Part shown: in pieces, positions 33,640 through 55,100 of the stretch
Numbering within the stretch: the first letter of the stretch is position 1
Layout of the letters: each line of letters opens with the position of its first letter
Assembly: GCA_037447655.1 (NCBI GenBank)
Contig: JBBHKE010000310.1
Location: forward strand, 81,497-145,496
Length of the DNA: 64,000 nucleotides
Source of the DNA: Zygnema cylindricum
Taxonomy: Eukaryota; Streptophyta; Zygnematophyceae; Zygnematales; Zygnemataceae
Direction: 5' to 3'
Translations under genes and position numbers: made by a program
The notes under the pieces: model-generated
Database searches by the model: none
The model's input: only the letters and a program-made list of their open reading frames with translations
Told to the model about the DNA's origin: nothing

Positions 33640-34080
33640 TCTACATTCAAAGCAGTTCTGTGAAAATATTCGCAGCGAGGGCAACTTTACCAATTATCGT
33701 GAGAGAGTAGAGAAGAAAAGGGAATCCGTTTTTCACCGTCATTATGTTTCTTTTTTTCTTTTCAATTTGTTGGGTCTAAATCCTTAAACTGCGTATAAAG
33801 TTCCCTATCCTTTTTTCTCATTTGAAGTCCCAAGCGATTTTTGCTGCAAGAACGACTTTATTGACGGTCGTGGAAGAAAAGATGAGAGAGGAATTCACCG
33901 TTTCTCACCCTTTTTTCCTGTTTTCTTTTCTTTTTTCTATTTTTGAGTGTAAATTGGGTACTTAATTTTGTCCTTTACTATAATCTTCCTTTTCTGGTCT
34001 AATCGAAGAAATTTTGTCGAAACATTCGCCACAAGAGCGACTTTATTAAAGGTCATAGGAGGAGAGAAGAGAGAAATTCG
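33640..34080 (-). repeat. Three decaying copies of the terminal hydroxylase exon
   Basis: Downstream of the real last exon (34141-34282) lie at least three diverged partial copies, near 34000-34090, 33820-33905 and 33645-33735. Each repeats the sequence for the end of the protein (on the plus strand: GAAATTT.GTCGAAACATT.GC.GC.AGAGCGACTTT.. then a purine stretch). Similarity seems to fall with distance. They follow the stop codon and are not needed for the protein. Confidence 0.8.
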
Positions 34081-34140
34081 CCGTTTCTCACCTACTTTTT
34101 TTTTCCTTGTCTTGGGTATATAAATCTCCCTTTTCCGGTC

Positions 34141-52100: not shown

Positions 52101-55100
52101 TTCTCTTTATTTCCGTCCTTCTTTCTTTCTTTTTTCCTTTGATAATTGGATAGAGTTTAGAATCAGGTTTCAGTTCTTACCGAAAAATGGTTAAAGAATT
52201 ATTGAATCACAAAAAAAGAGACCGCCCCTCCCACTCCCTCTCAGTTCCCCTCTCCCTCCCCCTTTCCCTAACCTACCCTCTCAGTGTCATACATTTTTTG
52301 TATTTTTTTTTACATTTGCATTTTACTTTGAGGCATTTCGTCGCCAAAAAATAAAAATAAAAGAAAAATCAAGAGCTTTTAACTTAAAAAAAGAAACAGA
52401 AAAAAATTAAAATCACTACTCTACTCATTTTTCCCTCTTCGAGTAAAAAACTCGAATCAAAAACTTCAAAAGCTTAAATCGAAATTTAAAAAAACAAAAT
52501 TTTAAGTCAAAAATTGAAATCAGAGAGAGAGAGAGAAAGAGAGAGGAGGGAGGGAGGGAGGAGAGAGAGAGAGAGAAAGGGAGGGAGAGAAAGAAAAAGA
52601 GTCAAAAATTGAAATCAAAACTATTTGGAGTTTACAATTTCAAATCAGAAATTGAAATCAAAACTTAAGTCAAAAATTAAAATCAACACGAGAGAGAAAG
52701 CGAGAGAGAGAGAGAGAGAAAGAGAGAGGCAGAGAAAAAGGGAGAGGGAGAAAGAGAGAGAGAGAGAGAAAGAGTCAAAAATTGAAATCAAATGTTTTGG
52801 GGTTTACCGATTCGTCCATGAACGACTTATCGGTTAAAACCTTTTCGGTAAAAAAAGCCCTTTGAGGGTAATCTTTTACCCCTCCAAAAACAATAGTAGG
52901 AACTCCAATTATCCTTCCTAAAAAAACAGAAAAAGACAAAGAAACATTCAGGTAACTTTTGGTAAACGATAAGAAGAGTTTTTTTTTTTTGGGAAAACTT
53001 CACACGCATAATTTTTTTTTTGTTAAATTAGAAAACAACGAAAAAAACATAACATTAATAAAGTTAAGGAATAACATTTAAACAAAGTTAAATACAAAAG
53101 ATTTTAAATTTAATAGATCGTGATAAATTAAACCGCAAAATACAAAAGGTGAGAGCAATTATGTTTCTTCACTTTTGTTGAGACAAAAAAGAAAAAAAAA
53201 AAATCCTAACATTTTCTGGGGTTTTCGACTTTTTTTTCGATAATTTTAACTTTCTCCTCTCAAAATTTTCCAAATCCACATTAAATCAAAAACTTGTGTT
53301 TTGTTTTGACAATTTCAGCGTTTTCACTCACAAATTTCCCATTTACAAACCTTTTCCTTAATTGGTTTTAGAAGCTTGTTTTTTTTTCTCTCTTCTCTCT
53401 TTTTTTGACGAGTTTATCTAATTTCACTTACCAGTTTTTGAACCCACACTAAATCGAAAACTCGCATTTACAACCCTTTTCCCTAATGTCTTTAGAAGCC
53501 TCTCCCTCTCCTTCTCCCTCTCCCTCTCCCTCTTTGGACAATTTTAACTAATTTCACTCTCCCTCTCACTCTATCTCTTCTCTCACTCTCCTTTTTGACA
53601 ATTTTAACTAACTTCTCTCACCAGTTTTTGAATCCACATTAAATCGAAAACTCGCATTTACAAACGCATGCGAATTGACTCGACGAAGGGCGACTTTTTG
53701 AGTCGAAAATTTCTCCGAAAACTCCAAAAAGGGAACTTTAATTGCTTTTATGATAAGACCCAATTTGTCGAGCTTGAAAAACTCTTCGAGACTCACAAGA
53801 GACTCCTTTTTTTCCTCGAAAACTCGGATTATTAAAAGCTTAACTCCGGCTCCCATGAGAATTGTGGAGATATCGGAAACGAATTCTGGATGAGTGTGAG
53901 TAAGCATCAAATTTCCGGAAACGGAACCGACATTTCGAACCATGTGATTCGCAACCTAAATAAAAAGGGAAAGAAAAAAAAAAAAAAGGGAAAGAAGAGA
54001 GAAAAAAAAGGGCGAAAAACGGAGAAAAAAAGAGGGGGAAGCAAGGGGAAAGTGTGAGTTGAGCATCAAATTTCTGGAAACGGAACTGCCGCAGCCTATA
54101 AAAAAAAGGGAAGGATGAAAAAAAGGGAAAGAACAGGGAGAAAAAACAGGGAAAAAAACGAGGGCAAATAGAGGGAAAGTGTCAGTAAGCATCAGATATC
54201 CGGAAGAGGGGTGGGAAGGAGGAAGAGGAGAGGAGGGGAGAATTTGAACCATGTGATTCGCCACTAGAAAAAACAGAAAAAAGGAGAAAACGGGGAAAAA
54301 CGGGCGGAAAAGGGGAAAAGTAGGTAGAAAACGAGACAAGGAAAATAGGAAACAAAAAGAGACAAGGAGAACAGAGGGGAAAAGGACAAACTAGGGGGAA
54401 AGGGAAAAAGAAAAAGTAAACAGGGATTAGCATCAGTAACGGTCATCAGTTTCAATTCAAATAATAACTAGTAAACTAACAAATTCCAGTTTCAGTAAAC
54501 TTATAACCTATAATTAGATTACGAGTTCTTCGTTCATCGGTTACAGACTGAATTTCTCCTTACAATTATTGCACAAAAAAAAAACGAAAAAAAAGAAAAA
54601 AACCCAAAAAAAAAACCAAAAAAAGTGAAATAGGTTTCTCTCACCCGATACATATGCTTCACAAGAGGCTCAAAACTGGGACTCTTCTCTTTATTCTCCT
54701 CCAAAATTTGCATAAAATCAGTAATAGGAACGGCTCCTCCAACCACGATTTCGTTTTCCCCGACTTTAATTTCTCGAAGTTCCGAAATTAAAGAAATATC
54801 CGCGAGAATTTCGGCTTTTTCTGGTTCGTATACTCCACTTGCCGTGTTTCCCACTACCATTCTTACTCCTCCTTCCTTATATTGGAGAAGGAGAGAGACG
54901 AGAGTTTCGAGAGAATGGAGGCGAATCCACGACAAACCGTTTTTGGTAGAGAAGAGAGGGAGAGGGAGAGGAGGAGAAGGAGAGGTCAAAGAGACAGAGG
55001 GAATTGAGGAGGGGGTAGAGGATGAGGAGGAGGAGGAGGAGGAGGAAGAAGGGGAGAAGGACTGTTTTGTCTTTATGCATGTTTTTGTCCTATTACATAA

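Follow-up and report, generated by a model that had tools for sequence, protein, structure and literature searches.

The introns and 3' flank of a molybdenum hydroxylase gene in the alga Zygnema cylindricum contain partial direct copies of the gene's own exon edges, and it is likely that ordinary local tandem duplication followed by neutral decay accounts for these echoes. The gene occupies the minus strand (~57,407-34,141) of a 64,000-nucleotide stretch of contig JBBHKE010000310.1 (positions 81,497 to 145,496), hereafter the window, taken from an assembly of 353 Mb in 2689 contigs. An inspection of the bare sequence, the original prediction, had listed nine groups of such copies, all of which are present according to BLASTN, Tandem Repeats Finder (TRF) and alignment. 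Its suggestions of repeated local tandem duplication and of intron growth are likewise supported by the repeat pairs, the alignments and the exclusively direct orientation of the copies.

Copies of exon edges in the hydroxylase gene

Repeats were detected by comparing positions 33,400-57,600 with themselves using BLASTN, from whose counts low-complexity pairs were excluded, together with TRF, MAFFT alignments and an array set. The 50 pairs found were reduced by the distance and complexity filters to 39 complex pairs within 3 kb, 18 of which touch an exon (E-values 3e-3 to 5e-64, identities 70-94%). Three of the edges in Table 1 (E15 acceptor, E20 acceptor and E14 donor) lie beyond the earlier list. 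With respect to the two shortest groups, the E17 acceptor rests on TRF, MAFFT and the array set, and the E20 donor on TRF and MAFFT alignment of hand-picked segments only. The copies had been credited with 30 to 80 bases of exon; the actual extent is 16-66 in nine edge arrays and at most 74 for the last exon, and in the E20 copies no more than 13 bases match. At the youngest copy, that of the E15 donor and the only one inspected by eye for this feature, the junction sits in a short shared A-rich stretch.

After low-complexity filtering the complex repeats of the gene region comprise 37 direct and no inverted pairs, all with offsets below 700 bp, and no repeat copy was found beyond that distance. 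Most units are 100-200 bp in length and are present in two to four heavily diverged copies. The introns of the hydroxylase gene are unusually duplicated: in a Z-scan for local duplication that covered the whole window and used dinucleotide shuffles as background, accompanied by a complexity-binned comparison and an inverted-repeat control, ~35% of their scan windows were duplicated versus 9% in the remainder of the window, approximately four times the load, and the values in eight other stretches of the genome were 3-13%. It could be argued that the copies are an assembly artefact arising from haplotypes or misjoined repeats, as the assembly contains N gaps and, at 1-554 and 5160-5713, a 554-bp repeat of 100% identity. 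The exon-touching pairs, however, show the much lower identities given above, and copies of one edge differ among themselves, which misassembly of one sequence would not yield, making such an artefact highly improbable.

Table 1. Position, strand and supporting evidence of the hydroxylase gene, its edge copies and its intron-only arrays (window coordinates; E, exon; P0001, closest homologous protein)
Feature	Positions	Strand	Evidence
Molybdenum hydroxylase gene, 26 exons located	34141..57407	-	tblastn of P0001; hand-set splice junctions and frame; PDB matches to XDH
Terminal exon end (coding to 34144) and three decayed copies in 3' flank, within 33629-34092	33629..34217	-	BLASTN, alignment
E20 (37841-37669): donor 19-21 bp minisatellite 37564-37651 and two decayed acceptor copies (37953, 38081)	37564..38188	-	TRF, BLASTN, alignment
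E18 donor edge 39885 and two copies (39710, 39520), unit ~175-190 bp	39507..39931	-	BLASTN E 5e-64; alignment
E17 acceptor edge 40530 and two short copies (40641, 40671; ~30 bp, poly-A flanks)	40511..40741	-	TRF 40617-40686, 30 bp x 2.3; alignment; array set
Intron-only array	40813..41343	.	TRF, array set
E16 donor edge 41680 and one copy (41482), GT lost	41471..41723	-	BLASTN
E15 donor edge 42874, recent copy 42719 (94% identical, offset 157) and weaker older copy 42345	42239..42922	-	BLASTN, alignment
E15 acceptor edge 42972 and copies (43192, 43310), running on into intron-only copies	42948..43579	-	BLASTN, alignment, array set
E14 donor edge 44607 (GC donor) and decayed copies (44151)	44151..44642	-	BLASTN, alignment
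Intron-only array	45545..45813	.	BLASTN, array set
E10 donor edge 47684 and two copies (junction copies 47549, 47411)	47337..47749	-	BLASTN E 2e-49, 3e-36; alignment; GT in both copies
Two intron-only arrays, 48879-49078 and 49885-50141, of the same kind, without exon sequence	48879..50141	.	BLASTN, array set
E4 donor edge 53622 and two copies (53432, weaker 53264)	53234..53663	-	BLASTN, alignment
E4 acceptor edge 53955 and two to three copies (54095, 54264)	53893..54311	-	BLASTN, alignment
Intron-only array, end 4 bp from E2 donor (55843)	55597..55839	.	BLASTN, array set

Divergence of the copies and fate of their splice sites

Among the pairs that cross an edge, mismatches were counted at 46 of 511 exon sites (9.0%) and at 182 of 1000 intron sites (18.2%). 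This two-fold gap is the one expected of neutral copies beside a conserved exon, the observed difference being ~10% where drift is open to the copy alone and ~18% where it is open to both partners. Differences between exon and copy at codon positions 1, 2 and 3 number 24/216, 21/218 and 39/220, respectively (position 3 versus 1 and 2, P=0.009). In simulations 83.5% of edge events were detected compared with 69.0% of intron events; copies spanning an edge stay legible for longer because their exon partner is conserved and only the copy drifts. The copies had also been thought to become more diverged with distance, a trend that is not general, as in the 11 groups with at least two copies exon-part identity falls in five, ties in two and does not fall in four.

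The statement that each copy contains the splice site is true of the 17 of 22 copies that keep GT or AG (11/14 donors and 6/8 acceptors), and fails for the others, in which the dinucleotide is lost. These 17 cases could be taken to mean that selection has retained the copies, whether as regulatory sites or as decoys for splicing. The neutral expectation, however, is ~0.76, derived from 84 differences in 654 sites (12.8% divergence). Thus, splice dinucleotides survive at close to the neutral rate and give no sign that copies were kept or purged as splice sites. The first and second codon positions, too, show differences between exon and copy, and P0001, which is 83% identical to the predicted protein, lacks any inserted copy. 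The decoy role raised by the original prediction, and retention by selection more widely, therefore has very little to recommend it.

Placement of the copies relative to exon edges

When the exon edges were rotated along the gene, the kind of check that the original prediction had itself proposed, there was no edge enrichment: the Z-scan hit 16 of the 50 true edges compared with 41.6% on rotation (P=0.89), and 13 of 34 repeat pairs crossed an edge against 11.0 expected (P=0.33). Edges are thus hit no more often than rotated edges, and neither the claim that the copied unit is centred on splice junctions nor the proposed process tied to such junctions is borne out by this comparison. A binomial test (P=0.005) was discarded, as pairs had been compared with a one-member null. 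Because pairs from a single array depend on one another, the Fisher values are rough.

It should be emphasized, however, that several observations weigh against the explanation favoured here. At the two highest Z thresholds edges were nominally above rotation, with 5/50 versus 7.7% (P=0.29) and 4/50 versus 4.5% (P=0.17). Under nulls that took account of selection by barring duplications inside or across whole exons, 13 of 34 pairs crossed an edge versus 9.0 expected (P=0.084), and 9 of 15 arrays lay at edges versus 3.9 (P=0.0056). Simulated decay and detection left an edge excess with P=0.14 for pairs and 0.010 for arrays; the same simulation predicts that edge copies carry a median of 68 exon bases, with 43% exceeding 75, while the nine edge arrays reach 16-66. 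The mean distance from array to edge is 50 bp, compared with 134 bp under the selection-aware null (P=0.006) and 92 bp on rotation (P=0.08). Over all tests, P ranges from 0.17 to 0.89 under rotation nulls (mean distance, P=0.08) and from 0.006 to 0.14 under selection-aware nulls. The one duplication in the gene on stretch L006 (below) likewise carries an acceptor edge. Furthermore, the process was not seen happening in two segmental copies elsewhere in the window: in this comparison, which has little power, none of 50 indels (4 of them at least 10 bp long) is a new tandem duplication, at 4.4% substitutions across 8160 aligned bases.

The edge excess under the stricter nulls is an unexplained residue. 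It speaks for duplication anchored at exon edges, with R-loop borders, nucleosome edges or a conserved sequence that is copied time and again as candidate causes and with introns growing outward, but the lack of enrichment of either edges (16/50) or pairs (13/34) on rotation makes this mechanism unlikely. The more specific proposal, that exon ends anchor recurrent duplication such that in some genes of this lineage the introns lengthen in ~150 bp steps by recopying of a conserved master edge, appears doubtful. If the residual excess were true genome-wide, it would provide new insight into where introns grow.

Identity and structure of the host gene

The gene encodes a molybdenum hydroxylase of the xanthine dehydrogenase/aldehyde-oxidase type. 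A first protein was assembled from the minus-strand translation by joining exons by eye, and the 26 exons were then placed with P0001 as guide. Almost the whole of the product aligns with xanthine dehydrogenases of solved structure (PDB chain 1fo4, E=2e-194, positions 26-541 and 566-1312 of the query), and the similarity spans the 2Fe-2S, FAD and molybdopterin domains, as expected of a family member; xanthine and aldehyde as substrate class are not separated by these matches (PDB 1fo4 and the P0001 domains). P0001, the closest homologue in a large protein database (83% identity over 97%), derives from a contig of 4.1 kb, possibly a transcript, and contains PF00111, PF01799, PF00941, PF03450, PF01315, PF02738 and PF20256. 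Named matches, at ~50%, come from the liverworts Calypogeia and Marchantia and the lycophyte Selaginella, with an entry labelled 'jgi/Mesen1', which we take to be Mesotaenium, at 52%. This spread of matches points to a streptophyte, and most likely to a charophyte alga.

The 26 exons are in open frame, with GT-AG borders except for two introns that have GC donors (E7 at 50369 and E14 at 44607). One further exon is presumably inside the N gap at 50659-51418, and the conserved TPGF codons that follow the cysteine motif of exon 1 are missing from assembled intron 1; both were left unplaced in the gene model. The exon 1 start used in scripts, 57412, is 5 bp off the ATG at 57407. Between 56819 and 57407 exon 1 carries an in-frame GA-rich repeat that encodes a K/E/G tract, and a long CT repeat opens intron 1. 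Approximately 54 copies of the hexamer AGGGAG form an array (34428-34751) in the intron preceding the last exon.

Other features of the window and of fetched stretches

The two copies of the identical 554-bp repeat are offset by 5159 bp. An array in L001 (9665-9933), a stretch just left of the window, matches window positions 4824-5092 in internal offsets and identity, again 5159 bp apart; a perfect 5.16-kb tandem repeat or assembly duplication thus seems to extend past the window start. The segmental tandem duplication mentioned above (9680-18573 and 20479-28860, offset ~10.3 to 10.8 kb, 86-95% identical by block) holds two copies of a SNARE gene (PF12352). In L006 (600-1361) a SET-domain-type gene, spotted with a codon-usage exon finder that is noisy and served no other use on the fetched stretches, contains a tandem duplication of 382 bp that takes in one complete intron and ~80 bp of the exon after it; an additional exon of 84 bp, in frame, seems to have resulted. 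No homologue guided the exon borders of this gene, which were drawn by eye, and its first donor, placed at 640, is probably at 606 instead. Retroelement remains in the window include a piece of an SH3_Tf2-1 domain (62946-63416), and three of the eight fetched stretches (L003, L007 and L008) have long open frames that were judged by eye to be retroelement-like.

Discussion

Under the explanation that we favour, neutral local tandem duplication, short duplications with units of mostly 100-200 bp would arise repeatedly in the hydroxylase gene, probably through break or gap repair, or replication slippage, in low-complexity DNA. Those within exons or over whole exons would mostly be purged by selection, while those within introns or over one exon edge would be nearly harmless, in the latter case because the exon retains its own intact edge. 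A duplication that spans an edge would necessarily leave an adjacent direct copy of the exon end with its splice site, and as this copy drifts neutrally beside a conserved exon it would remain recognizable for longer, and hence be conspicuous. Copies containing exon ends would thus mostly reflect the chance placement of duplications. The hydroxylase gene offers an example of how a neutral process can mimic a mechanism acting at splice junctions, edge copies being legible because one partner is conserved, and provides a clear view of intron lengthening through local duplication.

The echoes resemble several known systems. Short tandem duplications in plants reportedly arise from the repair of nearby nicks or breaks, as described by Vaughn and Bennetzen in 2014 and Schiml et al. 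in 2016. Similar to the copies described here, these are direct and adjacent, span tens to a few hundred bases and are scattered in non-coding DNA; in the hydroxylase gene, however, several rounds have accumulated in the introns of one gene, where an origin in repair is our inference. Intronic minisatellites, or variable number tandem repeats, also form head-to-tail arrays in introns, of the kind reported by TRF, but the units here are mostly 100-200 bp, exist as two to four heavily diverged copies and in some cases include an exon edge. In the model of intron gain through tandem duplication of exon sequence containing AG-GT, coding sequence is likewise duplicated together with splice signals. 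The hydroxylase gene, in contrast, shows no new intron; it is the existing introns that look lengthened. Introner elements, finally, are repeated sequences carried in introns, as are the copies in the hydroxylase gene, which differ, within the gene region compared, in being exclusively direct and confined to within 700 bp of one another.
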